A stretch of DNA of 64,000 nucleotides from the NCBI GenBank assembly GCA_016842005.1, contig JAENYD010000005.1, forward strand, positions 62,001 through 126,000, written 5' to 3'. The stretch is from Clostridium thermobutyricum (GTDB lineage Bacteria; Bacillota; Clostridia; Ch29). Below, one piece after another: positions 20,634 through 54,121 of the stretch (the first letter of the stretch is position 1; each line of letters begins with the position of its first letter). The notes beneath the pieces were generated by a model. It was not told the origin of the DNA and ran no database searches. It saw only the letters and a list, made by a program, of their open reading frames with translations. The position numbers and the translations under genes are program-made.

Positions 20634-20707
20634 GCTGTTTATATAAAAGAGTTTCTGCAACAAGGATTTTGTGTGAAAATGTAGAAGTAAAACCTGGGGT
20701 GATTAGG

Positions 20708-29673: not shown

Positions 29674-29702
29674 AGAGGGTTTTTTTTCTATTTGTAGAAT
29701 AT
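29674..29702 (+). promoter_or_regulatory. Sigma-H-type promoter of spoVS
   Basis: AGAGGGTTT (29674-29682) and GTAGAATAT (29694-29702) are 11 bases apart. The Bacillus sigma-H consensus is RNAGGAWWW-N11/12-RNNGAATWW, so there is one mismatch. B. subtilis spoVS is known to depend on sigma-H, which supports the call. Confidence 0.75.
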
Positions 29703-31128: not shown

Positions 31129-31483
31129 TATCAGAAATCGTCAGTTCTCCACAAAAGTAAGCACCACTTCCCTTATGAAGATGTTTATTCTCCACCTGTT
31201 GCTGAAGGAAGCTTTGTACGGTAATCAGATAATAGATCAGATCAAACAAAAACTGCAGTATAAATGGGAACCCAGCCCGGGTATGATTTACCCGTTATTA
31301 AGGCAGCTGGAGGACAGTGGATTTGTAATAAGCTGGTGGCTGGAGCCTGACAAGAAATCCATAAGGTATTACAGGATTACAGAAGAAGGTACTTCACACC
31401 TTGAAAGACTGAAAATCAGATATAAGAAGCCTGTTGAAGATGCAAGAGATATAATGCAGTATGTAATAGATGAAATATTTTGA
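31121..31483 (+). CDS. PadR-family transcriptional regulator
   Basis: Winged-helix DNA-binding protein of 120 residues with the PadR N-terminal pattern: LMKMFILHLLLKEALYGNQI, PSPGMIYPLLRQLEDSGFV and the wing KKSIRYYRITEEG. It has a short C-terminal dimerisation helix. It is coupled to the PHP gene and just ahead of purB. The target and ligand are unknown. Confidence 0.88.
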   Translation: MSDIRNRQFSTKVSTTSLMKMFILHLLLKEALYGNQIIDQIKQKLQYKWEPSPGMIYPLLRQLEDSGFVISWWLEPDKKSIRYYRITEEGTSHLERLKIRYKKPVEDARDIMQYVIDEIF

Positions 31484-31497
31484 AAGGAAGATCTAAA

Positions 31498-32925
31498 ATG
31501 TATACAACCTATGACAATCCCCTGGCAGCAAGATATGCCAGCAAAGAAATGCTGGAAAACTTTTCAGCCCAGAAAAAATTCTCCACATGGAGACGGCTGT
31601 GGATAGCACTGGCCGAAGCCCAGAAGGAACTGGGTCTTAATATAAGCGACCACCAGCTGGAACAGATGAAAAAGTTTCAAAATGATATAAACTTCGATGT
31701 AGCCAGCCAGAAAGAAAAAGAATTCCGCCATGATGTAATGGCCCATATCCATGCATATGGCGATCAGTGTCCTGATGCCAGACCTATCATACATTTGGGT
31801 GCTACAAGCGCCTATGTCGGTGATAATACGGATATCATACTGATGAGGGAAGGTCTGAAAATAATTCAGGTAAAACTGGTTAACTGCATGAAGGCCTTAA
31901 CACAGTTTGCTCTTGAATATGCTGATATGCCTACTCTGAGTTTTACTCATTTTCAGCCGGCACAATTGTCCACTGTAGGAAAACGGGCATGCTTGTGGCT
32001 TCAGGACCTGCTGCTTGACCTGAAGGATTTGCAGCACCTGATTACGGTCATGCCCCTCAGGGGGGTTAAAGGAACAACCGGCACCCAGGCAAGCTTCCTG
32101 GAGCTTTTTGATGGAGATCATAGTAAAGTGGTGGAACTGGACAAAAAAATAGCTGAAAAAATGGGCTTTACTTCCACATTCCCCGTTACCGGTCAGACTT
32201 ATCCCAGAAAACTTGATGCAAAAGTTCTGGCTGTCTTAAGCGGAATAGCTCAAAGCGCCCATAAGTTCAGCAACGATATAAGGCTTCTGCAGCATCTGAG
32301 AGAGATTGAAGAACCTTTTGGTGAAAAGCAGATCGGTTCTTCCGCCATGGCCTATAAAAAGAACCCCATGCGCAGCGAAAGGATAGGCTCTCTTGCAAGA
32401 ATGGTAATTATAACTTCATTAAATCCTGCAGTCACTGCTTCCCAGCAATGGTTCGAAAGAACCCTCGATGATTCGGCAAACCGAAGAATTACTATTCCTG
32501 AAGCCTTTCTGGCTGTTGATGCTATATTACTCCTTTACATCAATATAATAAAGGGATTGAAAGTATATCCGACAGTCATTAACAAACATGTTATGAATGA
32601 GCTTCCTTTCATGGCCACCGAAAACATTCTCATGGAAGCAGTAAAAAAGGGAGGAGATCGTCAGGAACTTCATGAAAAAATCAGGAAATATTCCATTACT
32701 GCTTCAAACAGGGTCAAGGAAGGAAAAGACAATAATTTACTCGAATTAATTGCCGGTGATGCAGACTTCAATCTATCCAAAGAAAATCTGGAACAAATGA
32801 TGAATCCGATGAATTTTACAGGCAGGTCTGCTCATCAGGTGAAAGACTTCATTTCCCAATATGTACAGCCTGCTCTATCTCTTTATGATGACATTGGCAA
32901 TGTCTCTCCCAACCTTAAAGTTTAA
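31498..32925 (+). CDS. purB: Adenylosuccinate lyase
   Basis: Cleaves SAICAR and adenylosuccinate in purine synthesis. The 475 residues belong to the fumarase/aspartase superfamily: the first signature LGATSAYVGDNTD, the catalytic-His stretch SFTHFQPAQLSTVGKRA, and the signature loop GSSAMAYKKNPMRSERI. The ATG at 31498 has GAAAGGAAG upstream, whereas an earlier in-frame ATG lies within padR. No other purine gene is nearby. Confidence 0.96.
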   Translation: MYTTYDNPLAARYASKEMLENFSAQKKFSTWRRLWIALAEAQKELGLNISDHQLEQMKKFQNDINFDVASQKEKEFRHDVMAHIHAYGDQCPDARPIIHLGATSAYVGDNTDIILMREGLKIIQVKLVNCMKALTQFALEYADMPTLSFTHFQPAQLSTVGKRACLWLQDLLLDLKDLQHLITVMPLRGVKGTTGTQASFLELFDGDHSKVVELDKKIAEKMGFTSTFPVTGQTYPRKLDAKVLAVLSGIAQSAHKFSNDIRLLQHLREIEEPFGEKQIGSSAMAYKKNPMRSERIGSLARMVIITSLNPAVTASQQWFERTLDDSANRRITIPEAFLAVDAILLLYINIIKGLKVYPTVINKHVMNELPFMATENILMEAVKKGGDRQELHEKIRKYSITASNRVKEGKDNNLLELIAGDADFNLSKENLEQMMNPMNFTGRSAHQVKDFISQYVQPALSLYDDIGNVSPNLKV

Positions 32926-32975: not shown

Positions 32976-33228
32976 TTTATAATCCAGTGGGACACACTGC
33001 GGGAGAGATGAAAGGGCATAGACGAAACGTCCCCATGCGGGAGGCATACAGACGGGTGCACCGGAGAAAAAATCTATTATGGTTTACATAATAATGTTTT
33101 TCCAGAAATATGAATATATAAGGTGTTCATACCGTATAATTCAATATGTGCATATATAAATATTATACTTTATTAATAAATATTGATTTCTGAAAATAAG
33201 AAATATTATTAAAATATTTGTTGAAATA
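32976..33228 (+). other. Non-coding stretch ahead of the accessory cluster
   Basis: No gene is seen. The first 100 bases have a balanced composition with small hairpins (CAGTG/CACTG near 32985, GACGAAACGTC near 33021, ATGC/GCAT near 33034, GGGTGCACC near 33055). From about 33090 on it is very AT-rich. I recognise no RNA family. It might be a leader remnant, a small RNA, or nothing. Confidence 0.3.
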
Positions 33229-33257
33229 AGAGGAATTTAATTTTTTTTGTAGAATAT
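33229..33257 (+). promoter_or_regulatory. Sigma-H-type promoter of the amino-acid oxidation cluster
   Basis: AGAGGAATT (33229-33237), an 11-base spacer, and GTAGAATAT (33249-33257) match RNAGGAWWW-N11/12-RNNGAATWW at every defined position. The spoVS promoter in this window has the same -10 box. No comparable sigma-A promoter is seen in this gap. Confidence 0.7.
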
Positions 33258-33273
33258 ATATTCGTTAAGTAAT

Positions 33274-33362
33274 AATCAAACTTTGTGGATTTTTGATTTA
33301 AAAAAGGAGGTGATAAGTACAATAATTATGTAAACCATTATACTTATCTAAAAAAAAGGGGG
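33274..33362 (+). other. Folded mRNA leader of the transporter gene
   Basis: Downstream of the sigma-H site are an AATCAAA/TTTGATT hairpin (33274-33298), a full Shine-Dalgarno GGAGGTGAT (33306-33314) that is not next to a gene start, and a GATAAGT../..ACTTATC hairpin (33312-33347) covering part of it. A second Shine-Dalgarno, AAAAGGGGG (33354-33362), serves the real ATG. Confidence 0.45.
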
Positions 33363-33372
33363 TATTCTGTTA

Positions 33373-34872
33373 ATGAGTAACAAAGAAACATTTGGTAGCC
33401 GATGGGGCTTTGTACTGGCCGCAATAGGAATGGCTATCGGAACCGGAAACATCTGGCGTTTCCCGAGGGTTGCTGCAGCAAACGGCGGAGGTAGTTTCCT
33501 CATAGCCTGGACTGTTGCCCTGATAGTATGGTCTCTTCCGCTGCTGATGGCCGAGATGGTCCTTGGACGTAAGACAGGCCTCGGCTGTATAGGTGCCTTC
33601 AGGGATTTCCTGGGCAGGAAGTTCACCTGGATGGGTACCTGGGTTGCAGTGGTATGTCTGGGCATAGCCTTCTACTACTCGGTTGTAATGGGCTGGTGTA
33701 TGAAGTACTTCACCCTGGCCGTATCAGGCGCTTTCAAGGCCGGCATGACACCCGAGCAAACCACTGAAATCTGGAACAATTTCCTTGCCACGCCTTCCCA
33801 GACAATACTCTTCCATGCTATAGCGGTACTGATATCCGGGATTGTTGTTTACAGGGGCGTTAACAACGGAATAGAAGCAGCTTGTAAGGTAATCATTCCG
33901 ACCTTATTTGTATTATTAATAATTGCAGCCATAAGGGCTCTGACCCTGCCAGGGGCATCTCTTGGTGTTGCATATCTCTTCACACCGCATATGAGCGACC
34001 TGGCAAATCCCAATACATGGCTGCAGGCCTTTACCCAGTCAGCCTGGTCCACAGGAGCCGGCTGGGGGTTCCTTATAGTCTACGGTGTATACACCAAGAA
34101 AAAAGACGACATAGGTCTCAACTGTGTACTGACAGGTCTTGGCAACAACTCTGCTTCCCTTATAGCAGGTCTTGCAGTAATACCCACGGTATTTGCCCTG
34201 TCAGCATCCCTTGACGCTGCAAATGCGGCTGTATCTGCAGGCAACTCGGGTCTTACATTTATCTATCTTGCATCACTGTTCCCCACCATGCCTGCAGGCA
34301 ACTTGATTGCCGCCGTGTTCTTCTTTGCCATGACAATAGCGGCACTGTCCTCTCTGATAGCCATGTACGAACTCGGTATAAGGGTAATATGCGATTTCAA
34401 TGTATCAAGAAAAAAGGCTGCCCTTTGGGTTATTATCGGTGGTTTCGTGTTTGGAGCACCTTCCGCATACAACGCTACATTCCTGGATAACCAGGACTGG
34501 GTATGGGGTGTGGCCCTGCTCATAAGCGGACTGTTCTGCGCGTACGCCATGATGAAATACGGTGTGGAAAAGGTCAGGACAGAGATTATCAACCACCCAT
34601 GGGCAGACCTTTATATAGGCAAGTGGTGGAGCGTATGCATAAGACTGTTCCCCATAATGTTCGCAATAGTATTCGGCTGGTGGGTATGGCAGGCCATTAC
34701 ATGGTATCCGGACAACTGGATGGCACCGTTCGAGACCTTCAGTGTTGGCACAATGGTATTCCAGTGGGGTATACTGCTGGTGCTCGCCCTCATATTCAAT
34801 AAAACTCTTGCCGACAAGACCATTGAAGGCTATGACATAACTCAAGCCCCTGAAGAAGAGGAGGCGGTATAA
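33373..34872 (+). CDS. Sodium:neurotransmitter symporter family amino-acid transporter
   Basis: Sodium-driven importer of the NSS (LeuT/SNF) family with about 12 membrane segments in 499 residues. The first helix carries the family signature IGTGNIWRFPRVAAANGGGS, whose unwound Gly-rich part binds substrate and sodium in LeuT. NSS substrates in bacteria include leucine, methionine, alanine, tryptophan and tyrosine; the substrate here is not evident. A MetS-type small subunit follows at once, and amino-acid-oxidase-like genes come next, so the cargo is probably the substrate of that dehydrogenase. Preceded by a sigma-H-type promoter. Confidence 0.92.
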   Translation: MSNKETFGSRWGFVLAAIGMAIGTGNIWRFPRVAAANGGGSFLIAWTVALIVWSLPLLMAEMVLGRKTGLGCIGAFRDFLGRKFTWMGTWVAVVCLGIAFYYSVVMGWCMKYFTLAVSGAFKAGMTPEQTTEIWNNFLATPSQTILFHAIAVLISGIVVYRGVNNGIEAACKVIIPTLFVLLIIAAIRALTLPGASLGVAYLFTPHMSDLANPNTWLQAFTQSAWSTGAGWGFLIVYGVYTKKKDDIGLNCVLTGLGNNSASLIAGLAVIPTVFALSASLDAANAAVSAGNSGLTFIYLASLFPTMPAGNLIAAVFFFAMTIAALSSLIAMYELGIRVICDFNVSRKKAALWVIIGGFVFGAPSAYNATFLDNQDWVWGVALLISGLFCAYAMMKYGVEKVRTEIINHPWADLYIGKWWSVCIRLFPIMFAIVFGWWVWQAITWYPDNWMAPFETFSVGTMVFQWGILLVLALIFNKTLADKTIEGYDITQAPEEEEAV

Positions 34873-34873
34873 C

Positions 34874-34978
34874 ATGACAGGTGCAACATATATAATGCTG
34901 GTACTGGTACTGGGATTCTACTGGGGAGGCTTTGTTTACTTCGCTCTGAAGGCAGCTAAAGCCGACGCTAACAAATAA
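34874..34978 (+). CDS. MetS-like small subunit of the NSS transporter
   Basis: A 34-residue membrane protein starting one base after the transporter stop codon, with AGGAGG inside the transporter gene as ribosome site. It has one hydrophobic helix (YIMLVLVLGFYWGGFVYFAL) and a charged tail KAAKADANK. It resembles the MetS small subunits (methionine/alanine importer) known to be needed by some NSS transporters such as Corynebacterium MetP. The assignment rests on size, topology and position. Confidence 0.78.
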   Translation: MTGATYIMLVLVLGFYWGGFVYFALKAAKADANK

Positions 34979-34994
34979 AACAGACGATACACCG

Positions 34995-35044
34995 TCAAAT
35001 TGTACCCCTCTCACCGGATTCACGGGGAGAGGGGTACAATTTGA
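34995..35044 (+). repeat. 18-bp perfect inverted repeat after the transporter operon
   Basis: TCAAATTGTACCCCTCTC (34995-35012) pairs with 35027-35044 around a 14-base loop. No T-run follows, so it is more likely an RNA-stabilising or processing hairpin than a simple terminator, separating the transporter pair from the dehydrogenase genes. Confidence 0.7.
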
Positions 35045-35072: not shown

Positions 35073-35378
35073 ATGCGTATTGAAGAACATCCAATACTTA
35101 CCTTTGAAAAAGGCAACAAAGTAAAGTTTACTTACAATGGTAAAACGCTGGAAGGATATGAAGGAGAGCCTATAGCTGCTGCTCTTCACGCTGCAGGGGT
35201 AAAGGTGCTGGGGTACAGTAGCGTCCACAAACGGCCGAGGGGATTTTACTGTGCTATTGGCAACTGTTCTTCATGCCTCATGACAGTTGACGGTAAACCC
35301 AATGTAAGGACCTGCGTCGAAAAACTCAGAGAGGGTATGAAAGTCGAGACACAACAGGGTAAGGGGGAACTGATATGA
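35073..35378 (+). CDS. [2Fe-2S] ferredoxin-like subunit (HcnA / SoxX type)
   Basis: Small electron-transfer subunit of 101 residues with the beta-grasp ferredoxin fold found at the start of HcnA, sarcosine oxidase alpha and opine oxidase systems. Cluster ligands are visible in FYCAIGNCSSCLMTVDG and the later RTCVEK (C-x4-C-x2-C...C). It is the first of five tightly packed genes and its stop overlaps the next start by 4 bases. Electrons probably pass between the flavin subunits and this cluster. Confidence 0.85.
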   Translation: MRIEEHPILTFEKGNKVKFTYNGKTLEGYEGEPIAAALHAAGVKVLGYSSVHKRPRGFYCAIGNCSSCLMTVDGKPNVRTCVEKLREGMKVETQQGKGELI

Positions 35379-36457
35379 GAACAACCGATATTGCAGTTAT
35401 AGGAGGAGGCCCTGCAGGTTTATCCGCAGCCATCAGTGCTGCTTCCCTCGGAGCCAGGGTAACTCTCGTGGACAGAAATGACCATCTGGGAGGACAGCTG
35501 GTTAAGCAAACCCACATGTTCTTTGGTTCTGAAAAACAGCACGCATCGGTGAGAGGAATAGATATTTGCGATATTCTGATAGACAAGCTTAAAACATATG
35601 AAGATAATGTTGATATAATGATAAATTCCACAGTGCTTGGAATTTATGAAGACGGAGTTATCACTGTGGAACAGAACGAAGAAGAATATATTAAGCTCAA
35701 ACCCCGTTCCATGATTATTGCCACAGGGGCATCGGAAAAAGTACTTGCCTTCCCCAATAATGACCTGCCGGGAATATACGGTGCAGGTGCTGTACAAACC
35801 CTTATGAACGTTCATGGTGTTAAACCTGGTGATAAAGTTCTTATGGTAGGAGCAGGAAACATCGGTCTCATCGTAAGCTATCAGCTCATGCAGGCGGGAG
35901 TAAAGGTTGAAGCTATTATAGATGCTGCTCCCCATATAGGAGGATACCTTGTTCATGCCTCCAAAATCAGAAGAATGGGAGTCCCGATATATACATCCCA
36001 TACAGTAAAAGAGGCAATCGGAAAAGACTGCCTGGAAAAAGCGGTTATTATGCAGCTTGATGAAAGCTGGCAGCCCGTAAGTGGAACCGAGAAAGAACTA
36101 GATGTTGATGTAATGTGCATATCAATAGGTCTGTCTCCGCTGACGGAGTTACTGTGGCAGGCAGGCGTAGATATGAAATATGTTCCCGAACTTGGGGGAC
36201 ACGTGCCTGTCAGAAACCAGGAGTATCAGACCTCCAACGCTAACGTTTATGTGGCCGGAGACGTTGCAGGAGTCGAAGAAGCAAGTGCCGCTATGGTTGA
36301 AGGTCAGCTTGCCGGACTGTGTGCAGCCAAAAATATGGGATATACCTCTCCGGATTTTGAAGCCAGAAAACAGGACTGTATTAACCAGTTGAATGACTTG
36401 AGGTCCGGACCTACAGGCGCCAAAATAAGAAAAGGCTTGGAAAAGCTATTAGGATAG
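35375..36457 (+). CDS. FAD-dependent oxidoreductase, HcnB / dehydrogenase alpha type
   Basis: Two-dinucleotide-fold flavoprotein of 360 residues: FAD site IAVIGGGPAGLSAAISAASLG reduced to GGGPAGLSAA, second nucleotide site VGAGNIGLIVSYQL, and the closing FAD motif VYVAGDVAGVEEASAAMVEG. It matches HcnB, opine oxidase A and the alpha subunit of dye-linked L-proline dehydrogenase. Those proteins carry a C-terminal BFD-like [2Fe-2S] domain, which here is a separate gene two positions downstream. The start overlaps the preceding stop (ATGA). Confidence 0.87.
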   Translation: MRTTDIAVIGGGPAGLSAAISAASLGARVTLVDRNDHLGGQLVKQTHMFFGSEKQHASVRGIDICDILIDKLKTYEDNVDIMINSTVLGIYEDGVITVEQNEEEYIKLKPRSMIIATGASEKVLAFPNNDLPGIYGAGAVQTLMNVHGVKPGDKVLMVGAGNIGLIVSYQLMQAGVKVEAIIDAAPHIGGYLVHASKIRRMGVPIYTSHTVKEAIGKDCLEKAVIMQLDESWQPVSGTEKELDVDVMCISIGLSPLTELLWQAGVDMKYVPELGGHVPVRNQEYQTSNANVYVAGDVAGVEEASAAMVEGQLAGLCAAKNMGYTSPDFEARKQDCINQLNDLRSGPTGAKIRKGLEKLLG

Positions 36458-36468
36458 GGGGGTAAGCT

Positions 36469-36957
36469 ATGCTAGAAAAAACTGGTATACCAACCGCAGA
36501 ACAGATAGAAGAGGTTACGCCGTCAAAAGAAAGACTGGCCAAAGGTCCTGTTGCTATAATAGAATGCTTTCAGAACATCCCTTGCAATCCCTGTTATACA
36601 ACATGCCCGAGCAAAGCCATAAAAGAACTGTCAGACATTAATGAAAGACCTGAAGTGGATTTCAACAGGTGTAACGGTTGCGGCGCGTGTATAAGCAAAT
36701 GCCCTGGCCTGGCAATTTTCGTTGTAGATGAAACCTATTCGGAGGATAAGGCCCTGATAAAACTTCCTTACGAATTCCTGCCGCTGCCCCAACAGGGGGA
36801 TACCGTCAAAGCCCTTGACCGAAGCGGTGAGATTGTTGGTGAGGCCGAGGTTTTAAAAGTTGTAAATACCAGGGCTCAGGACAGGACTCCTGTTATCTGG
36901 ATTGCAGTGGACAGGGAACTTTCTATGAAGGTAAGAAACATAGGAATGGGGGATTAA
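36469..36957 (+). CDS. 4Fe-4S dicluster protein of the dehydrogenase complex
   Basis: 162-residue iron-sulfur protein. The first cluster motif is irregular (CFQNIPCNPCYTTCPSKAI); the second is canonical (CNGCGACISKCPG). After about residue 95 comes a small all-beta-like tail with no match I recognise. It sits between the two flavoprotein genes and has AGGGGGG before its ATG. It probably wires the flavin subunits to a ferredoxin-level acceptor. Confidence 0.78.
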   Translation: MLEKTGIPTAEQIEEVTPSKERLAKGPVAIIECFQNIPCNPCYTTCPSKAIKELSDINERPEVDFNRCNGCGACISKCPGLAIFVVDETYSEDKALIKLPYEFLPLPQQGDTVKALDRSGEIVGEAEVLKVVNTRAQDRTPVIWIAVDRELSMKVRNIGMGD

Positions 36958-36958
36958 T

Positions 36959-37240
36959 ATGAGTAACGATAAAAAAACCATTGTATGCCGCTGTGAGGAT
37001 TTGTTCCTTGAAGATATCAGAGAATTGATTGAGAAGGGCTATTCAAGTGTTGATGAGATAAAGAGAGTAAGCCGCTGTGGTATGGGACCCTGTCAGGGTA
37101 GGACCTGTAGGGATATAGTATTGAGGGAATTAGCCAGGGCAAAAGGCAAAGATATTTCCGAACTTAAAATGCCAACCTTCAGGCAGCCTACAAAACCCAT
37201 CAAGCTGGGATTAATAGACAGGGGTGAGAAAAATGATTAA
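36959..37240 (+). CDS. BFD-like [2Fe-2S] protein
   Basis: 93 residues with the bacterioferritin-associated-ferredoxin-like pattern CRCEDLFLEDIRELI, then VSRCGMGPCQGRTC, giving the C-x-C...C-x4-C ligand set. In HcnB and NirB-type proteins this domain is fused to a flavoprotein; here it stands alone. It starts one base after the previous stop and overlaps the next gene, so the complex is likely made in fixed ratio. Confidence 0.82.
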   Translation: MSNDKKTIVCRCEDLFLEDIRELIEKGYSSVDEIKRVSRCGMGPCQGRTCRDIVLRELARAKGKDISELKMPTFRQPTKPIKLGLIDRGEKND

Positions 37241-38384
37241 GAAGTCAGCCGAAGTAGTAATAATCGGTGGAGGAGTATCCGGTCTTGCCACCGCATATTT
37301 CCTGGCAAAAAAAGGCGTGAAAGATATAGTGCTGCTGGAAAAAGGCTTTATCGCCAGTGGCTCAACCGGCAGATGCGGAGCCGGTATCAGACAGCAGTGG
37401 GGGACCGTCATGAACTGCAAAATGGCAATTCATGCATGTGAGTTTTATGAAAATGCCAACGAGATCCTTGAATATGACGGAGATGTTGAATTCAAGCAGG
37501 GTGGATATCTGATAATTGCAACCACCGAAAAAGAACATGAACAGTTCAAGAAAAACGTGGAGCTGCAGAAAAGTCTCGGTATCCCTGTCGAGCATTTGAC
37601 GCCTGAAGAAGCCCTCAAAATAGTTCCGTTCCTGAATATCAGCGATGTGCTCAGTGCAACCTTCTGCCAGAAAGACGGACATCTTAACCCGTTCCATGTA
37701 TGTGACGCCTTTGCCAAAGCTGCACGACGCCTGGGCGTTGAAATATATACCTACACTGAAGCGAAAGATATTATTGTTGAAAATGGTAGGGTTAAAGGGG
37801 TTGTAACCGACAAAGGCACGATTGCCACCGAAAAAGTTATGAATGCAGCAGGAGGATATTCACAGGTTATATGCAAAATGGTCGGCATTGATGTTCCAAT
37901 TTATTCGGAACGGCACAACATTCTTGTTACAGAACCTGTTGAACCATTTCTAGGACCAATGGTTATGGCCTTCCATAAAAACCTTTATATCCAGCAGTCA
38001 CCCCATGGCAGCGTTATTATGGGTAAAGGCGATCCCAACGAGCCCAGGGATTTCAGGATAACCTCCTGCTGGAAGTTCCTTGACGAAATGGCGCAGATTG
38101 CTTGTGATACGCTGCCTCCGTTAAAAGACCTGAGAATGGTCAGACAGTGGGCAGGATTATATAATATGACGCCTGACGCTCAGCCGGTACTCGGCTCTGT
38201 TGAGCAGGTGGAAGGATTCTATATGGCCATAGGTTTCAGCGGTCACGGCTTCATGATGGGCCCGACAACCGGTCTGGTAATGGCAGAATACATTCTTGGT
38301 GAAGAGACAACTTTACCCATAGATATGCTTAACCTTGAACGGTTTGAAAGAGGCGAACTGATACTGGAACCTTCGGTTGTATAG
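37233..38384 (+). CDS. D-amino-acid-oxidase-fold FAD dehydrogenase (HcnC / sarcosine oxidase beta type)
   Basis: Catalytic flavoprotein of 383 residues with the FAD site VVIIGGGVSGLATAYFLAKK, the loop ASGSTGRCGAGIRQQWG typical of the sarcosine-oxidase-beta/HcnC/proline-dehydrogenase-beta group, and the C-terminal GFYMAIGFSGHGFMMGPTTG. Family members oxidise the C-N bond of amino acids (glycine, sarcosine, proline, opines). As it is encoded with iron-sulfur partners in an anaerobe, it should be a dehydrogenase, not an oxidase. ATG 37233 follows GGGGTGAG. The substrate is not evident from sequence. Confidence 0.85.
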   Translation: MIKKSAEVVIIGGGVSGLATAYFLAKKGVKDIVLLEKGFIASGSTGRCGAGIRQQWGTVMNCKMAIHACEFYENANEILEYDGDVEFKQGGYLIIATTEKEHEQFKKNVELQKSLGIPVEHLTPEEALKIVPFLNISDVLSATFCQKDGHLNPFHVCDAFAKAARRLGVEIYTYTEAKDIIVENGRVKGVVTDKGTIATEKVMNAAGGYSQVICKMVGIDVPIYSERHNILVTEPVEPFLGPMVMAFHKNLYIQQSPHGSVIMGKGDPNEPRDFRITSCWKFLDEMAQIACDTLPPLKDLRMVRQWAGLYNMTPDAQPVLGSVEQVEGFYMAIGFSGHGFMMGPTTGLVMAEYILGEETTLPIDMLNLERFERGELILEPSVV

Positions 38385-38461
38385 GTATTTGAAAAGGAAA
38401 ACAAAATAAAATATAATATAAAATGATTGATCGATTACCATGACCTGATATGAACAGAATT

Positions 38462-38721: not shown

Positions 38722-39108
38722 GTGAAAATCGTAAAAACAAAGCCGGAACTCTGTATAGGATGCAGGGCGTGTGAGACAGCCTGCTCGAAAGTTCTGTTCA
38801 AGGAAGATAACCCGGAAAAATCGGCAATAAAGATTACCGAAAAAAATGAGGGTGGTTTTGACATCAACGTATGCAATCAATGCGGAGAATGTATTGACAT
38901 CTGTCCTGTGAAGGCTATATACCGGGCTAAAAACGGTACTGTAATGATAAATAAGGAAAAATGTGTGCAGTGTTATGCCTGCGTCGGTTTCTGCTCTTAT
39001 CTTTCTATGAGATATCAAGAAGACGTTTTCGGCCCGTTCAAGTGCATCGCCTGCGGGGCCTGTACCCGCGAATGCACTACAGGGGCAATCTTTATGGATG
39101 AAGCTTAG
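38722..39108 (+). CDS. Polyferredoxin (four 4Fe-4S clusters) partner of AOR
   Basis: 128-residue iron-sulfur protein with four cluster motifs: CIGCRACETAC, CNQCGECIDICPVKAI, CVQCYACVGFC and CIACGACTRECTTGAI. The pattern is of the HycB/AOR-associated electron carrier type. The start is GTG with AAAGGGGGG upstream. It is 20 bases before the AOR gene, so it is its likely redox partner, passing electrons to ferredoxin. Confidence 0.85.
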   Translation: MKIVKTKPELCIGCRACETACSKVLFKEDNPEKSAIKITEKNEGGFDINVCNQCGECIDICPVKAIYRAKNGTVMINKEKCVQCYACVGFCSYLSMRYQEDVFGPFKCIACGACTRECTTGAIFMDEA

Positions 39109-39128
39109 AGTAAAGGAGGGACTGTTAA

Positions 39129-41306
39129 ATGAGTTGTGCTAATTGTGAAAAAATGAACCTGGAAGAATTCAGAAACGCCCGCGTGCTTTTAACCGAATAT
39201 AGCTTTGCCCCTCAGGAAGTAAAAAGGGGATATGCGGACAGGATCATGCATGTGGACCTGTCATCAAATAAAGTTACTGTGAAACCCGTGTCCGAAGACA
39301 TGAAGAATAAATTCACAGGCGGCAGGGGATATGGCATGAAATGTCTCTGGGATGCCGTCACTCCTGAAACCCGGTGGAACGACCCTGAAAACGAGATAAT
39401 CATCGCCCCGGGACCCATTGCAGGTATAACCCAGTATCCCGGTGCGGGAAAATCATATGTGGTTACCATCTCCCCTCTGACCGACATACCGGTAGACAGC
39501 AATGTGGGCGGGTATTTCGGCCCGCTGTTCAAATTCTGCGGGTTTGACGCCCTGGAGATACAGGGAAAAGCCAAAAATGACGTAATTGTTGTCATAGACG
39601 GCGACAACAATAAAGTCACCATAGAGGAAGCCCCGAAAGAAGAGATTAACAGCCATATCCTTGCAGAACTGCTTACAGATATGTACTCGGACTCTGAAGA
39701 GGATAAACTCAATGTCTCTGTAGTTTCTGCTGGAAAGGCAGCCGAAAATACACGTATCGGCATATTGAATTTCTCCCTGTATGACCTGAGAAGAAAAGGC
39801 GTCAGACTCAAACAGGCGGGCAGAGGCGGTATCGGAACGGTATTCAGGGATAAAAGGATTAAAGCGCTGGTTGTCAAAAAGTCCAACCTGAAAGGGGACT
39901 GGAACAATCCGGCTGATTTAAATAAAATAACCGAGCTGGGCATTAAACTCCATAAAGAAATACATGACCTGGATGATGCACAAAATCAGATGAGAAAAGT
40001 GGGTACAACACAGCTGGTTGATGCAATGAATGCCCATGATCTTCTGCCTACAAACAACTTCAAGTTCGGGTCCCATCCCGAAGGTCCCAACCTGGGAAGG
40101 GAATTTTTCATGAAACGGTTTACCCAGGGCATACCGGATGGATGCTGGTACGGCTGCACACTGGCCTGCGCCCATACAGCCGAAGGGTTTGAACTGAAAA
40201 CAGGTCCGTATAAAGGTCAGAAAGTTATGATTGACGGTCCCGAATATGAGACACTGGCAGGCTGTGGTTCCAACTGCGGAATTTTTGACCCGGATATTGT
40301 GCTGGAATGCAATTTCTATTGTGACACCTACGGAGTGGATACCATTTCCTTTGGAACCCTTTGCGCCTTTGTTATGGAATGCTATGAAAACGGCATTATC
40401 AATAAAGAGATAACCGGAGGCCTTGAGCTTAATTTCGGAAACTGGGAAGCACAACTGGAACTGCTTCACCAGATGGCAAGAGGCGAGGGTTTCGGAATGG
40501 TTGCCGGTCAGGGTATTCACAGAATGAAAAAATTATTCGTTGAAAAATACGGTGCAGACCCCAGCTTCCTCAAGGATATAGGTATGGAGGCCAAGGGTCT
40601 TGAATACTCCGAATACGTATCCAAAGAATCCCTGGCCCAGCAGGGTGGCTACGGGACAGCCAACAAAGGTCCACAACATGATGAAAACTGGCTTATATTC
40701 CTGGACATGGTCAGGAACCTGATGCCCACCTTTGAGGACAAGGCAGAAGCCCTGCACTATTTCCCGCTATTCAGGACATGGTTCAGTATCGTCGGATTGT
40801 GCAAACTCCCATGGAACGATATCGAACCTGCGGACAACGTGCAGAAGTCGGAACCTGCCAAGGTGCCTGAGCATGTACAAAACTATGTGGAATTATTCCA
40901 GGCGGTTACAGGCAAACCCTTCTCTGTCCAAGAGCTCCTTCTCCAGTCAGAAAGGGTATATAACCTGCAAAAGGTGTTTAGCCTGAAGATGGGAAAAGGC
41001 ACCAGGGCTTACGATGCAGTACCGTACCGTTCGGTAGGTCCTGTAACAGTTGAAGAATACGAATCACGCCAGGAGCGCTATGACAAACAGCTGGAAGAAA
41101 AGGCAGGTGTAAATCCCGCAGGGATGTCCACGGAGGAAAAAATAAAAGAACTGAGAAAATACAGGGAAGGTCAATATGAGAAACTGCTGGACGCTGTTTA
41201 CAAACGGCGGGGCTGGACATCTAATGCCATACCCACAATAGAGAAACTGGAAGAACTTGGTATAGCTTATCCTGACGTGGTGGAAGTTGTCAAAAAATTC
41301 CTATAA
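39129..41306 (+). CDS. Aldehyde:ferredoxin oxidoreductase family tungsto-/molybdoenzyme
   Basis: Oxidises an aldehyde to the acid and reduces ferredoxin using a bis-pterin tungsten (or molybdenum) centre. The 725-residue product has a 30-35 residue N-terminal extension, the AOR N-terminal domain (GGRGYGMKCLWD; GPIAGITQYPGAGKSY), GRGGIGTVFRDKRIKALVV, and the pterin motif DTYGVDTISFG. Cluster Cys are C339, C343 and C347 (CWYGCTLAC) plus C558 (GLCKLPW). The first spacing is one residue longer than the C-x2-C-x3-C of Pyrococcus AOR. BamB-like activity on other substrates cannot be excluded. ATG after AAAGGAGG. Confidence 0.88.
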   Translation: MSCANCEKMNLEEFRNARVLLTEYSFAPQEVKRGYADRIMHVDLSSNKVTVKPVSEDMKNKFTGGRGYGMKCLWDAVTPETRWNDPENEIIIAPGPIAGITQYPGAGKSYVVTISPLTDIPVDSNVGGYFGPLFKFCGFDALEIQGKAKNDVIVVIDGDNNKVTIEEAPKEEINSHILAELLTDMYSDSEEDKLNVSVVSAGKAAENTRIGILNFSLYDLRRKGVRLKQAGRGGIGTVFRDKRIKALVVKKSNLKGDWNNPADLNKITELGIKLHKEIHDLDDAQNQMRKVGTTQLVDAMNAHDLLPTNNFKFGSHPEGPNLGREFFMKRFTQGIPDGCWYGCTLACAHTAEGFELKTGPYKGQKVMIDGPEYETLAGCGSNCGIFDPDIVLECNFYCDTYGVDTISFGTLCAFVMECYENGIINKEITGGLELNFGNWEAQLELLHQMARGEGFGMVAGQGIHRMKKLFVEKYGADPSFLKDIGMEAKGLEYSEYVSKESLAQQGGYGTANKGPQHDENWLIFLDMVRNLMPTFEDKAEALHYFPLFRTWFSIVGLCKLPWNDIEPADNVQKSEPAKVPEHVQNYVELFQAVTGKPFSVQELLLQSERVYNLQKVFSLKMGKGTRAYDAVPYRSVGPVTVEEYESRQERYDKQLEEKAGVNPAGMSTEEKIKELRKYREGQYEKLLDAVYKRRGWTSNAIPTIEKLEELGIAYPDVVEVVKKFL

Positions 41307-41453: not shown

Positions 41454-41482
41454 TTGACATTATTTTAGAAAAATAATATAAT
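41454..41482 (+). promoter_or_regulatory. Sigma-A promoter of the hydrogenase operon
   Basis: Exact consensus TTGACA (41454-41459), 17-base spacer and TATAAT (41477-41482). Just upstream is an inverted repeat TTAACAC (41411-41417)/GTGTTAA (41431-41437), a possible regulator site. About 190 bases of AT-rich leader follow. Confidence 0.85.
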
Positions 41483-41671: not shown

Positions 41672-42139
41672 ATGTGTGATCAGAAAAAAGTCCTAGAGAT
41701 TATTGAAAACTGTGGTACTTGTGAAACCAAGCTCCTTGAAATCTTGCTGGAAGTTCAGAATGCTTCCGAACTTAACTACATCTCAGCAGACAATGCGGAG
41801 ACCATTGCCAAAGCCCTTGACATTCCTCTAAGCAAGGTCTATGAAGTAATAAGTTTTTATTCTATGCTCTCCATGGAGCCAAGAGGAAAACACATTATAG
41901 AAGTGTGCAAGAGCAGTGCCTGTCATGTTAAAGGCAGTAAGGAAGTGCTCAAGATGCTGGAAGAGATCCTGGGAGTTACAGCATGGCAACCAACAGAGGA
42001 CAACAACTTCTTTATTGAAGAAGTGAACTGTTTTGGAGCCTGTGACATAGCACCTGCTATTAAGATAGGTTCCAAGGTATATGGAAATCTGAATAAAGAA
42101 AAACTGATCCAAATTATAAATTCATATCGGGGGGTTTAA
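41672..42139 (+). CDS. hydC: NuoE-like [2Fe-2S] subunit of trimeric [FeFe]-hydrogenase
   Basis: Thioredoxin-fold [2Fe-2S] subunit of 155 residues, equivalent to NuoE and to HydC of Thermotoga-type hydrogenases. The four ligands are C79, C84, C120 and C124 (CKSSACHVKG; NCFGACDIAP). It is the first gene of a five-gene operon with NuoF-like, HydA-like, formate dehydrogenase and AsrAB-like products. It lacks a close Shine-Dalgarno sequence; the strong one is 39 bases upstream behind a hairpin. Confidence 0.9.
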   Translation: MCDQKKVLEIIENCGTCETKLLEILLEVQNASELNYISADNAETIAKALDIPLSKVYEVISFYSMLSMEPRGKHIIEVCKSSACHVKGSKEVLKMLEEILGVTAWQPTEDNNFFIEEVNCFGACDIAPAIKIGSKVYGNLNKEKLIQIINSYRGV

Positions 42140-42140
42140 A

Positions 42141-43439
42141 ATGGCTGAAGAGATGAAAATACTGACTTCTTTCTGCGGCAAGTATCATCCAGGGTCAGTA
42201 GAAGAATACGTTGCTTTGGGCGGCTACAAAGGCTTGAAAAAAGCTGTGGATATGAGGCCCACAGAAATAATTGACGAATTAAAAAAATCCAAGCTGGTGG
42301 GCAGAGGTGGCGCAGCCTATCCTGTTGGGAAAAAATGGGATATAATGTATGGTATCGAAAAAACCCCTAAATATATTATCTGTAATGCTGACGAAGGAGA
42401 GCCCGGAACCTTCAAGGACAGAGAAATAATATACAGGGACCCCTTTAAAATAATTGAAGGCATGACTATAGCTGCGCATACCATTTTTTCCCAGCAGGGC
42501 TATATATACATTAGAGGCGAATATAAAGAGGGATACCTTCTGCTGAAAAATGCCATAAAGAGTGCCAAAGATGCTGGTCTTTTGGGGCAAAACATCCTGG
42601 ACAAAGGTTTTGATTTCGACATAGAGGTGGTATCAGGGGCAGGGGCATATGTATGTGGTGAAAACAGTGCTCTCTGCGAATCAATAGAAGGAAAAAGCGG
42701 ACGTCCGAGGGGTAAGCCCCCGTACATTAAAAATGTAGGGCTGTTTCTGGAACCCACCCTTGTAAATAACGTCGAATCCTTTGCCTGTATCCCCTATATA
42801 ATAGAAAAAGGCGGAACAAATTATGCGGGCATCGGTACCGAGAACAGCACCGGAACCAAGCTTGTCCCTGTCTCAGGCAATGTGAACAAGCCCGGTGTTT
42901 ATGAAGTACCTTTCGGAGTGACCTTAAGAGAGATTATTTTTGGTCTTGCAGGTGGCATTGAAGGCGAAAAAGAGTTTAAATTTGCTCAAATAGGTGGGGC
43001 TTCGGGGGCCTGCATCACTGCCAAAGACCTTGATATACCTCTTGACCACAATGCTTTGAGAACTAAAGGTATAAGCCTGGGATCCGGAGCCATAGTAGTA
43101 GCCGATGAGACTAACTGTCCGGTTGATTTTGCCCTGATGACAGCAGAATTTTTCCTTCATGAATCGTGCGGAAAATGCACGCCATGCAGAGAAGGCGGTG
43201 CTCAATTACGCAAACTGCTCAAAGAGCTGTCTGATGGCTGTGGAACCGAAAAACACCTGGAACAGATTGAAAACCTTTCAGAATTACTGATGAAAGCTTC
43301 TTTCTGCGGCCTTGGCCAGACTGCTCCCACTGCTATGGTATCCCTTATGAAGAATTTCAGGGAAGAATTTGTTGAGCATATTTCAGGTAACTGCAGAGCT
43401 GAAAAGTGTAATCTTGTTAAAAAGGAGGCTGCAGTATAA
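42141..43439 (+). CDS. hydB: NuoF-like NAD(P)H-binding diaphorase subunit of [FeFe]-hydrogenase
   Basis: FMN- and NAD(P)-binding subunit, 432 residues. It has GRGGAAYPVGKKW (54-66), the FMN site NADEGEPGTFKDRE (82-95), and near 340 the [4Fe-4S] motif ESCGKCTPCREGG. Thermotoga-type HydB proteins are longer, with an N-terminal thioredoxin-like and a C-terminal two-cluster domain; both are missing here, so it resembles plain NuoF. It starts one base after the nuoE-like stop and overlaps hydA by one base. It is the likely pyridine-nucleotide site in electron bifurcation. Confidence 0.92.
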   Translation: MAEEMKILTSFCGKYHPGSVEEYVALGGYKGLKKAVDMRPTEIIDELKKSKLVGRGGAAYPVGKKWDIMYGIEKTPKYIICNADEGEPGTFKDREIIYRDPFKIIEGMTIAAHTIFSQQGYIYIRGEYKEGYLLLKNAIKSAKDAGLLGQNILDKGFDFDIEVVSGAGAYVCGENSALCESIEGKSGRPRGKPPYIKNVGLFLEPTLVNNVESFACIPYIIEKGGTNYAGIGTENSTGTKLVPVSGNVNKPGVYEVPFGVTLREIIFGLAGGIEGEKEFKFAQIGGASGACITAKDLDIPLDHNALRTKGISLGSGAIVVADETNCPVDFALMTAEFFLHESCGKCTPCREGGAQLRKLLKELSDGCGTEKHLEQIENLSELLMKASFCGLGQTAPTAMVSLMKNFREEFVEHISGNCRAEKCNLVKKEAAV

Positions 43440-45154
43440 TGTCTAACGTTACGCTGACTATAAACGATATGGAAGTTACTGTCCCAGAAGGTACTACGAT
43501 ACTGGAAGCTGCAAAAAAAGCAGGCGTGCGTATCCCTACTCTCTGTTACCATGAAGACCAGACTGTCAAGGCGAACTGCAGGATTTGCATAGTGGAAATT
43601 GAAGGCGGAAAGAAATATTATACTGCATGCAATACACAGGTATGGGACGGAATAAAGGTACGAACCAATACTCCCAAAATTATGAAAGCCAGAAAACAGA
43701 TACTGGAGCTTATCCTCGCCAACCATCCCCAGGAATGCCTCACATGTATCAGGAATACAAATTGTGAGCTGCAAGCCCTGGCAAAAGAATTCAAAATCCA
43801 GGATATCCAGCTGGAGGCCACCAAGGAGAAAAAACCTGTTGATACTGTATCCAAATATCTTATACGCGACAACAACAAATGCATTCACTGTAACAGGTGT
43901 GTAGAGATGTGCAACAGCGTACAGAGTGTGGCAGCAATAAGCAACGCCTTCCGCTCAATAGACTACTGTATTACCACTCCCTACGAGCTTCCTTTAGATC
44001 ACAGCAACTGCGTATACTGCGGGCAGTGTATTGCAGTCTGTCCTGTAGGTGCAATATATGAAAGGGACGACACAGATAAAGTATTTGAAGCTCTGGATAA
44101 CCCGGAAATGCATGTTGTGGTTCAGACAGCTCCGGCAATAAGGGTTTCTGTTGGTGAAGAATTCGGAATGGAACCGGGCAGTATTGTTACCGGTCAGCTG
44201 GTAGCAGCCCTCAGAAGACTTGGATTTGATAAAGTATTCGATACCAATTTCACTGCCGACCTGACCATTATAGAAGAAGGCAACGAACTGCTGCACAGAT
44301 TGAATAACGGCGGGACTTTACCGATGATAACTTCCTGCAGTCCGGGCTGGATAAACTTTATAGAAGGCTTCTATCCGGATCTGTTAAATCATGTGTCCAC
44401 ATGTAAATCACCGCAGCAAATGTTCGGAGCCCTTGCCAAGACCTATTACGCCGAGAAAATGGGCATAGATCCGGAAAAAATATTTGTCGTATCCGTTATG
44501 CCCTGTCTGGCAAAAAAATACGAATGCGACCGGGATGAAATGAAATCCAGCGGCTATAAAGACGTAGATGTTGTGCTGACTACCAGGGAATTGGCAAGAA
44601 TGCTGAAGATTGCGGGAATAGACATTCAGAAACTTGAACCCCGGGACTATGATGAACCTCTGGGCATATCCACAGGCGCAGCCGTTATCTTCGGTGCAAC
44701 AGGAGGCGTAATGGAAGCAGCCCTGAGAACAGTATACGATGTTGTAACCAAGGAAACCCTGAATGACATTGATTTCCACGATGTCAGAGGTCTGGAGGGT
44801 ATAAAAGAGGCTACTGTAGACCTTAAAGGAACAAAGTTTAAGGTTGCTGTAGCAAACGGCCTGGCAAACGCCAGGAAGCTGCTGGAGCTGATAAAAGAGG
44901 GGAAATGCGATTATCACTTCATTGAGATAATGTGCTGCCCTGGCGGATGTATTGGTGGAGGCGGTCAGCCGTTCGGTGCCACAAACGAAAAAAAACAAAA
45001 GCGACTTGACGCAATATACCAGGCAGATAAAGATATGAAGATGAGGAAATCCCATGAAAATCCGGCTATTAAGACCCTTTACGACGAATTTTTGAAAGAG
45101 CCTCTGGGAGAAAAATCCCATCATCTGCTCCACACCCACTACAAAAAAAGATAA
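43439..45154 (+). CDS. hydA: [FeFe]-hydrogenase catalytic subunit HydA
   Basis: H2-forming or H2-oxidising subunit of 571 residues. It has an N-terminal [2Fe-2S] ferredoxin domain (CRICIVEIEGG), a His-Cys cluster (HPQECLTCIRNTNC), two 4Fe-4S motifs (CIHCNRCVEMC; CVYCGQCIAVCP) and the H-cluster signatures L1 TSCSPGW (298-304), L2 MPCLAKKYECDRDE and L3 EIMCCPGGCIGGGGQP. L1 has Ser where many hydrogenases have a second Cys used in proton transfer. With NuoE/NuoF-like partners it belongs to the trimeric, often electron-bifurcating class. ATG overlaps the hydB stop. Confidence 0.95.
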   Translation: MSNVTLTINDMEVTVPEGTTILEAAKKAGVRIPTLCYHEDQTVKANCRICIVEIEGGKKYYTACNTQVWDGIKVRTNTPKIMKARKQILELILANHPQECLTCIRNTNCELQALAKEFKIQDIQLEATKEKKPVDTVSKYLIRDNNKCIHCNRCVEMCNSVQSVAAISNAFRSIDYCITTPYELPLDHSNCVYCGQCIAVCPVGAIYERDDTDKVFEALDNPEMHVVVQTAPAIRVSVGEEFGMEPGSIVTGQLVAALRRLGFDKVFDTNFTADLTIIEEGNELLHRLNNGGTLPMITSCSPGWINFIEGFYPDLLNHVSTCKSPQQMFGALAKTYYAEKMGIDPEKIFVVSVMPCLAKKYECDRDEMKSSGYKDVDVVLTTRELARMLKIAGIDIQKLEPRDYDEPLGISTGAAVIFGATGGVMEAALRTVYDVVTKETLNDIDFHDVRGLEGIKEATVDLKGTKFKVAVANGLANARKLLELIKEGKCDYHFIEIMCCPGGCIGGGGQPFGATNEKKQKRLDAIYQADKDMKMRKSHENPAIKTLYDEFLKEPLGEKSHHLLHTHYKKR

Positions 45155-45177
45155 AGTTTTAATTCCGATGCAACCGC

Positions 45178-45255
45178 CCGCCTCCAATTTCTCACCTCCC
45201 GTACAATGTGCTTCTAACAGCCAATCTAACAGCCAAGATGAGAGATTGGAGGCGG
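45178..45255 (+). repeat. Long imperfect inverted repeat with tandem 12-mers between hydA and fdhA
   Basis: CCGCCTCCAATTTCTC (45178-45193) pairs with 45240-45255 with one mismatch. The 46-base loop holds two exact tandem copies of TCTAACAGCCAA (45213-45236). It lies within the operon, 24 bases after hydA, and may terminate, process or pause transcription before fdhA. Confidence 0.75.
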
Positions 45256-45289
45256 AGTCGGATATAGTAAAGTAAAAGGGGAGGTCTAA

Positions 45290-47323
45290 ATGAAAAAAGT
45301 ATTGACAACCTGCTCCTATTGCGGATGCGGCTGCAATCTATATCTACACGTAGACAACAACGAAATAGTAGGAGTATCTCCATCAGGCAGCCATCCTGTC
45401 AGTCAGGGTAAACTCTGTGTTAAAGGATGGAGAGGTTTCGCGTTCGTGAATCATGAAGACAGGCTAAAACAACCCTTAATCAAACAGGAAGACGGTAATT
45501 TCAGAGAAGTCACCTGGGCAGAGGCTATATCATATGTTGCAGATAAACTGAAGCAGATAAGGAACCGGTATGGTCCGGAATCCATAGGTGTCCTGGCCTC
45601 TGCAAGATGTACCAACGAAGAAAATTATCTCTTATGCAAGCTAACCAGAACTGCTTTTGGAAGCCCGAATATCGACCACTGCGCCCGTCTCTGACACTCT
45701 CCCACAGTGGCTAGTCTAGCCGCAGCTTTCGGAAGTGGTGCAATGACAAACTCTATTAATGAAATTGAAGATGCGGACTGTATTTTTGTAATTGGTTCAA
45801 ACACCACTGAACAGCACCCATTAATAGGCAGCAGAATCCAGAAAGCCGCAAGAGAAAAAAACGCAAAGCTGATAGTGGTTGACCCCAGGGAAATCCCATT
45901 GACTGAAGACGCTGTAATTCATGCCAGATTAAAACCGGGAACCAACCTTGCCGTAATAAATGCAATGTTAAATGTCATCATTGAAGAAGGCCTTGAAGAC
46001 AGCGATTTCATAAGAGAACGAACCGAAGGATATGAAGAATTAAAAGAATCGGTTAAAGACTTTACTCCGGAAAAAGCTGAAAAGATTTCAGGTGTGCCGG
46101 CTGAAACCATCAGAGAAATGGCAAGGATGTATGCAAACGCAGAAAGAGGTTCCATTGTTTATGCCATGGGCATTACCCAGCATATCACCGGTAGCATGAA
46201 TGTCGCATCCCTTGCAAACCTTGCCATGATTACAGGTAACATGGGCAAGGCATCAACAGGAGTCAACCCCCTCAGAGGTCAGAACAATGTACAGGGGGCA
46301 TGTGATATGGCAGCGCTGCCTACATGCCTGCCAGGATACCAGAAGCTTGATGATGCATCCGTTGTGGAAAAATTCGAAAAGGTTTGGGGTAAATTCAACA
46401 GCAAAGCAGGATTGACTGTAACAGATATGACACACCATGCTGATGAAAATAACATAAAAGCAATGTTTATAATGGGCGAAAACCCGCTGATCAGCGACCC
46501 CGATTTAAACAAAGTTAAAAAGGTTTTGAAAGGATTGGAACTTCTGGTCGTTCAGGATATTTTCCTGACTGAAACAGCTCAGTTGGCCCATGTTGTACTT
46601 CCAGGAGCCAGCTTTGCCGAAAAGGACGGAACCTTCACAAATACCGAAAGGCGCGTACAGAGGGTGAGAAAAGCCATCGACCCTGTAGGAGAAAGCAAAG
46701 CCGATTGGGAAATCCTCTGTGAAATAGCCAGGGCCATGGGATATAACATGAGTTATAATCATCCTTCCGAGATAATGGACGAAATTGCTTTCCTTGTTCC
46801 CAGCTACGGTGGAATTGATTATGAGAGAATTGATGTGGTAGGTTTGCAATGGCCGTGTCCCACAAAAGACCATCCTGGAACTGTATATCTGCATAAAGGT
46901 AAATTTTCAAGAGGTCTTGGTAAATTCACCGTAAACAACTATATTGACCCTGCTGAGATGCCGGATGAAGAATACCCCTTTATTCTCACTACAGGAAGAA
47001 TACTTCATCATTATCACACAGGAACAATGACAAGGAGGTCCTGGGCCCTTGATTACGAATACCCCGAACCATATATAGAAATAAATCCCAAGGATGCCAA
47101 GAAACTGGAGCTCTCCAAAGGGAGCAAAGTGAAAGTGACTTCGCGAAGGGGACATCTTGTTGTTAAACCATTGATAACCGATATAGTCAGTGAAGGTGTT
47201 GTGTTCATGCCCTTCCATTACTTTGAAGCTCCTGCAAATATTTTAACCGGTGGACATCTTGATCCAAAATCCAAAATACCTGAATTGAAAGTATCTGCGG
47301 TGAAAATTGAGGAGGTGAAATAG
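45290..47323 (+). CDS. fdhA: Selenocysteine formate dehydrogenase catalytic subunit
   Basis: Molybdenum/tungsten bis-MGD enzyme interconverting formate and CO2. Read through the UGA at 45692-45694 the product has 677 residues. The sequence around it (DHCARL-U-HSPTVAS) is the classical FdhF active site, with Sec at 135 followed by the conserved His. The N-terminus holds the [4Fe-4S] ligands C8, C11, C15 and C43 (C-x2-C-x3-C-x27-C) with an extra Cys at 13, then K45. Both halves share one frame. A SECIS-like hairpin follows the UGA. ATG after GGGGAGG. Confidence 0.95.
45692..45723 (+). promoter_or_regulatory. UGA selenocysteine codon with SECIS-like hairpin
   Basis: Twelve bases after the UGA, GTGGCTA (45707-45713) pairs with TAGCCGC (45717-45723) around the loop GTC, with one G-U pair. 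Spacing and an apical G/U-containing loop resemble the fdhF element read by SelB in E. coli. Confidence 0.8.
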
Positions 47324-53773: not shown

Positions 53774-54121
53774 CTAAATATCCAGATATATTCTAATTAT
53801 ACTTCTCACCTTGTCTCTCATACTCTCTGAATAAATTTCTCCACATTTTTCACCAAGTCTGTCCTTTGAGATCGCTCTGATTTGATGTGCCATAACGATT
53901 GAATCCTTCTGAAGCCTTGTATCTTCCGCCTTTAATAATACTTCAGTAGGATAAATTTTTCTCCCGGGCTTATAGGATGTGATTGAGAGAATGGTTACTA
54001 TAGGCAGTGCATTATTTACCTCATCGGCTGAAATGACTAACACTGGCCTTATTCCTGATTGTTCGGACCCCCTGGATGGATTCAAATCTGCCCAGAAAAT
54101 CCCCCATTGATAGTTTACCAT
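53774..54121 (-). CDS. mazF: MazF/PemK-family mRNA interferase toxin
   Basis: 115-residue endoribonuclease toxin of a type II system. Family features: GIFWADLNPSRGSEQSGIRPVLVIS, VTILSIT, TEVLLKAEDTRLQKDSIVMAHQIRAI and a C-terminal helix. Its start overlaps the antitoxin stop by 7 bases, the usual antitoxin-first order. The cleavage sequence cannot be predicted. The pair sits in a housekeeping region, so it may be the chromosomal EndoA-type system or a small insertion. Confidence 0.92.
   Translation of the reverse strand: MVNYQWGIFWADLNPSRGSEQSGIRPVLVISADEVNNALPIVTILSITSYKPGRKIYPTEVLLKAEDTRLQKDSIVMAHQIRAISKDRLGEKCGEIYSESMRDKVRSIIRIYLDI

Follow-up and report, generated by a model that had tools for sequence, protein, structure and literature searches.

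Control of an amino-acid-type uptake and oxidation cluster has probably changed hands at the family level, from a sigma-54 promoter to a SigH promoter that occupies positions 33229-33257 of the window (the whole 64-kb stretch of DNA that was analysed, part of a 2.62-Mb genome, G000). What can be read directly are the motif and its statistics, its conservation in a near relative (G002), the sigma-54 sites and enhancer-binding activator (EBP) genes of other relatives, and the absence of both from the window; actual use by SigH, the start site, the timing, any advantage gained, and which way the swap went are inferred. The comparison suggests that, in the window's lineage, the pathway came under new control, passing from sigma-54 and its activator to SigH.

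A very probable SigH-type promoter upstream of the transporter gene

The site at 33229-33257 on the + strand is very probably a SigH-type promoter. Read directly as AGAGGAATT-TAATTTTTTTT-GTAGAATAT, with the -35 element at 33229-33237, a spacer of N11, and the -10 element at 33249-33257, it has no mismatches to RNAGGAWWW-N11-RNNGAATWW, as the sequence-only reading had proposed, and is the only exact match on either strand of the 64 kb. That reading had also compared it with the spoVS promoter at 29674 (AGAGGGTTT-N11-GTAGAATAT), and correctly so: the -10 element and spacing are identical, with one mismatch in the -35 element, and the gene 82 bp downstream matches Pfam SpoVS (2.2e-40). When a weight matrix built from 33 Clostridioides difficile promoters with sigH-mutant transcriptome support (Table 3, PMC7438776) was applied, the 33229 site scored 24.3 bits, the top position in the window and higher than every training promoter, followed by the spoVS promoter with 20.9 bits. 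The third-best match (19.8 bits; position 20660, + strand) lies about 50 bp inside a 774-aa open reading frame as called. SigH itself is encoded in G000 (TIGR02859, 382.9 bits, above cut-off), and transcription from the 33229 site is predicted to start at about 33264-33267. A search for a known structured RNA in the leader gave no Rfam match anywhere in the window.

Could such a motif have arisen by chance in AT-rich intergenic DNA? Genome-wide, G000 contains 45 consensus matches at N11/12 (31 at N11). The 18 wrong spacings N13-30 together give 97, about 5.4 each, which puts about three quarters of the exact N11/12 matches, and about 83% of those at N11, above background; the remaining quarter or so of the exact N11/12 matches would be expected by chance, a point in favour of this explanation. 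However, shuffled upstream DNA yields a perfect match with a p of about 0.02, 300 shuffles of the upstream region all fell short of the matrix score of the 33229 site, and the site is intergenic, correctly oriented and conserved in G002, all of which makes a chance origin very improbable. The consensus also exceeded a reversed-pattern control in all six genomes of the family.

Another explanation, that a sigma-A promoter with TAGAAT as its -10 element drives the transporter, appears improbable as well. TAGAAT is one position away from TATAAT and is retained in G002, but scanning detected no -35 element at 16-18 bp, and the TTGAAA found 23 bp upstream is not kept in G002. The same promoter scan found no TTGACA-N16/18-TATAAT near 33229-33257.

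The SigH (Spo0H) regulon promoters of Bacillus subtilis and C. difficile have the same -35 and -10 boxes and N11/12 spacing as the window site. Metabolic genes are also driven by SigH in C. difficile, including fdhF (AAGAGGAATT..GTTGAATTT) and sulfonate transporters (PMC7438776), whereas the target table of that study contains neither an NSS transporter nor a sarcosine-oxidase-like cluster; SigH dependence of the window's cluster is a prediction. Taken alone, the 33229 promoter is unremarkable as a SigH-type site, although a very good one.

Conservation in G002 and a palindrome overlapping the promoter

G002 (loci L004/L148) is the sole other family member found to carry the cluster, and its transporter is 65-66% identical to that of the window. 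The corresponding promoter reads GAAGGATTC-N11-CTAGAATATATATTC at a nearly equal distance from the start codon; the AGGA and GAAT cores, the N11 spacing, and the position are kept while the spacer letters have changed. At 15.7 bits, and with two departures from the consensus, this site falls slightly under the lower quartile of leave-one-out scores. The SigH site at the cluster is thus found in two genomes only (G000 and G002). Conservation of the motif in cluster-bearing relatives, put forward earlier as a check on the promoter, therefore proved partial: it extends to G002, but in the more distant relatives the motif is absent and sigma-54 with an activator is found instead.

Part of the -10 element lies within a perfect 12-bp palindrome, GAATATATATTC (33252-33263), a possible operator, which is conserved in G002 so that conservation runs 6 bp beyond the -10 element. 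Selection on an operator could account for part of the conservation. A rival explanation takes the conserved element for an operator palindrome (e.g., ArgR/AhrC-like or IclR-type) whose half-site resembles a SigH -10 element by accident, with another form of RNA polymerase transcribing the genes. The 14-mer TAGAATATATATTC, found exactly in G002 at the orthologous promoter only, occurs in G000 exactly at the 33229 promoter and at one other place, the promoter of an IclR gene, where it is extended to TATAGAATATATATTCTATA. In addition, the palindrome core fits the ARG-box core, GAATWWWWATTC. Compared with the ArgR/AhrC operator consensus, TNTGAATWWWWATTCANW, the core GAATATATATTC fits, both genomes have A in place of the flanking T ahead of GAAT, and only G002 has the A that should follow ATTC. 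Nevertheless, the -35 AGGA at N11 is conserved despite the changed spacer and is not predicted by a palindrome, spoVS has the same -10 element without a palindrome, and the closest G002 homologs of the IclR protein are 46-47% identical and none has the palindrome. We consider it unlikely that the element is an operator in place of a promoter; an operator overlapping a SigH promoter would be compatible with both readings.

The IclR-family gene (L041/L230, near 99400 of contig C7 in G000) itself has a SigH-type site whose -10 element lies inside the 20-bp palindrome TATAGAATATATATTCTATA, which has TAGAATATATATTC in common with the 33229 promoter. The IclR protein was rejected as a shared regulator because its closest G002 homologs lack the palindrome.

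Returning to the SigH promoter, it is bracketed in both G000 and G002 by an inverted repeat, GTTTACATAA/TTATGTAAAC, with arms about 240 bp apart. The left arm (33079-33091, - strand) is ATGGTTTACATAA on the + strand and exactly TTATGTAAACCAT on the - strand, with GTTTACATAA kept in G002; the right arm (33326-33338, + strand) is TTATGTAAACCAT, exact in the window and G002, and lies in the predicted leader. Both the palindrome and this repeat could be regulator sites. A genome-wide operator role for TTATGTAAACCAT was rejected because 12 matches at one mismatch versus 8 for the control gave no clear enrichment.

Genes and predicted transcription units behind the promoter

All of the genes described here are on the + strand unless stated otherwise. 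A purB-like lyase gene (31480-32925; TIGR00928, 394.7 bits) serves as the upstream syntenic marker, and the 447-bp gap between it and the transporter gene contains the SigH site. The first gene after the promoter encodes an NSS-family sodium-dependent transporter (33373-34872; PF00209, 4.5e-57; NF037979 above cut-off), followed by a 34-aa open reading frame (34874-34978), conserved in G002, that is tentatively a MetS-like small transporter partner (PF16951, E 0.0078, under its cut-off). The SigH promoter would directly drive the transporter and this weakly matching small frame. A strong hairpin without a U-tract (34995-35044; MFE -39.2 kcal/mol, z -7.2) separates this unit from the oxidase genes, and its core TACCCCTCTC/GAGAGGGGTA is kept in G002; it may serve in processing or attenuation. 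The outer changes in the G002 hairpin look compensatory.

The oxidase genes (35073-38384) encode a split sarcosine-oxidase-like complex comprising Fer2_4, Pyr_redox_2, 4Fe-4S ferredoxin, BFD/SO_alpha_A3, and DAO proteins (Pfam/NCBIfam) in an order conserved in relatives. Separate Fer2_4, Pyr_redox_2, BFD, and DAO subunits, similar to the soxA/soxB families, are likewise found in split sarcosine oxidase, and the complex presumably resembles archaeal L-proline dehydrogenase-type complexes. It differs from these known systems in that a polyferredoxin and an aldehyde ferredoxin oxidoreductase (AOR) follow and in that none of the sarcosine-oxidase-like subunits reached an NCBIfam equivalog cut-off. 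The analysis supports both the sigma-H assignment of the promoter and its place ahead of an amino-acid-type transporter and oxidase cluster.

The polyferredoxin and AOR genes (38722-41306; Pfam) are preceded by a candidate sigma-A promoter, TTGAAA-N17-TATAAT (38389-38417; 11/12 consensus), with TTG-AA and TATAAT at the same spacing in G002. Further downstream, a 12/12 consensus sigma-A promoter, TTGACA-N17-TATAAT (41454-41482), lies before genes for NuoE, NuoF, [FeFe] hydrogenase A6, formate dehydrogenase alpha in two frames, and a HydB/HydG-like fusion (41672-49249; NCBIfam). It had been suggested that the promoter at 33229 also switches on H2/formate disposal when growth slows. This was an over-extension: a separate sigma-A promoter, itself conserved ahead of nuoEF in G002, precedes the hydrogenase/formate dehydrogenase genes, and the conserved hairpin follows the transporter, so H2/formate disposal would not simply be switched on by the SigH promoter. 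The purposes proposed along with it, to power sporulation or to scavenge amino acids, are possible roles. No HydA6 and Fdh genes were found behind nuoF within the 13 kb examined in G002.

The formate dehydrogenase alpha gene is split into two open reading frames (45290-45694 and 45707-47323), 12 bases apart, that cover model positions 1-128 and 135-672; it may contain an in-frame stop that is read as selenocysteine. A PemK/MazF-like toxin gene of the toxin-antitoxin type is present at 53774-54121 on the - strand.

Predicted sigma-54 control of the cluster in wider relatives

The NSS transporter gene together with the Fer2_4/Pyr_redox/ferredoxin/BFD/DAO and polyferredoxin/AOR genes was also detected in Acidaminobacter, Anaerovirgula, Geosporobacter, Alkaliphilus, Maledivibacter, Anaerosolibacter, and others. 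Upstream regions of these more distant cluster-bearing relatives lack the SigH motif, which was absent beyond G002 across the ortholog loci. Upstream of the transporter in 15 loci there is instead a sigma-54 -24/-12 element, TGG[CT][AC]-N6-[TC]TGC[AT], versus 0.34 expected from shuffles, and relaxed matches were present in L075, L078, and L109. In most cluster-bearing relatives with the sigma-54 element, a sigma-54 activator (EBP) gene adjoins the transporter gene. Four of the EBPs were scanned and have PF00158 with CBS and/or PAS domains, plus HTH_8; most of the main-group EBPs share 55-66% identity with that of L091. Gene order is purB-EBP-NSS in L078, L081, L082, L083, L091, L092, and L101, versus purB-NSS in the window; in G002 an asparaginyl-tRNA synthetase-like gene, named from reading of the sequence, lies between purB and NSS.

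Neither component was found at the cluster in the window and G002: there is no TGGCAY-N5-TTGCW upstream of the transporter and no dedicated EBP gene beside it. The best full-length EBP match in G000 or G002 reaches 43%. G000 retains rpoN and 21 strong EBP-domain matches, implying that only the cluster's sigma-54 connection has been lost. In a survey of Clostridiales sigma-54 regulons, genes for amino-acid fermentation usually have a sigma-54 element and an adjacent EBP, such as PrdR, OrdR, and others (PMC6615313). The cluster of the relatives resembles the regulons described there, having TGGCAY-N5-TTGCW and an adjacent EBP, whereas the window and G002 are without both; the passages covered from that survey do not mention an EBP for the NSS/oxidase cluster.

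In a protein tree of NSS, HcnB, and DAO, rooted on L135 by our choice, the window pair is nested among the sigma-54/EBP lineages, with low support for some nodes. This nesting points to sigma-54 as the older state, so that SigH control looks derived. Several loci (L079, L085, and those of Halanaerobiaceae) have neither the sigma-54/EBP nor the SigH system, suggesting that sigma-54 control was probably lost more than once. SigH-like cores in the Halanaerobiaceae MAGs L105, L107, and L111 were rejected as promoters, being due to a conserved inverted repeat, AAGGAATT..AATTCCTT. The closest homolog of the NSS transporter (77%) is on a contig without the cluster in a Kiritimatiellia MAG (L073), reflecting either horizontal transfer or misbinning; the surrounding DNA is GC-rich, and this homolog is uninformative for the promoter.

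Proposed change of control and its wider setting

The ancestral cluster would have had a sigma-54 promoter and, beside the transporter gene, a dedicated EBP of the CBS/PAS type, both of which probably gave way to a SigH promoter in the window's family. SigH-bearing RNA polymerase would initiate near 33264-33267 and transcribe the NSS transporter gene and its small partner, and read-through past the hairpin probably extends transcription into the sarcosine-oxidase-like genes. With a SigH-dependent start, expression would track entry into the transition phase and not substrate sensing by an EBP. If true, this suggests that some spore-formers link amino-acid scavenging to the decision to arrest growth, and it would provide a testable case of a catabolic pathway shifting from substrate-sensing (sigma-54 and EBP) to life-cycle (SigH) control, for which purB-EBP-NSS versus purB-NSS are exact comparative loci in the study of sigma-factor regulon rewiring. 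In the open-access papers covered by our searches we found no direct precedent for a swap from sigma-54 to SigH or for the NSS/oxidase cluster, which is a weak sign of novelty.

The change of control may also belong to a broader pattern. Exact SigH sites in G000 precede a second NSS gene, an AGCS symporter, FtcD, a phosphate butyryltransferase, and a periplasmic binding protein; further exact sites in G002 precede an AGCS symporter and a phosphate butyryltransferase (both named by similarity to their G000 counterparts), a proline racemase, an OCD-family enzyme, and M19/M24/M29 peptidases. Scores of only about 15-16 bits place the phosphate butyryltransferase sites and the AGCS site of G000 near or under the lower quartile that known promoters reach in leave-one-out scoring. 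We tentatively propose, with slightly less than even confidence in the whole, that an amino-acid uptake/oxidation pathway in one clostridial lineage lost its own sigma-54 activator and promoter, gained in their place a SigH promoter that a regulator operator overlaps, and so joined a larger SigH regulon for using amino acids and peptides (in both genera an AGCS symporter and a phosphate butyryltransferase; also the second NSS gene, proline racemase, and peptidases).

The second NSS gene of G000 is cut by a contig end (L035, contig C2); the exact SigH consensus at positions 6582-6610 of that contig is 293 bp upstream of it and scores 21.9 bits.
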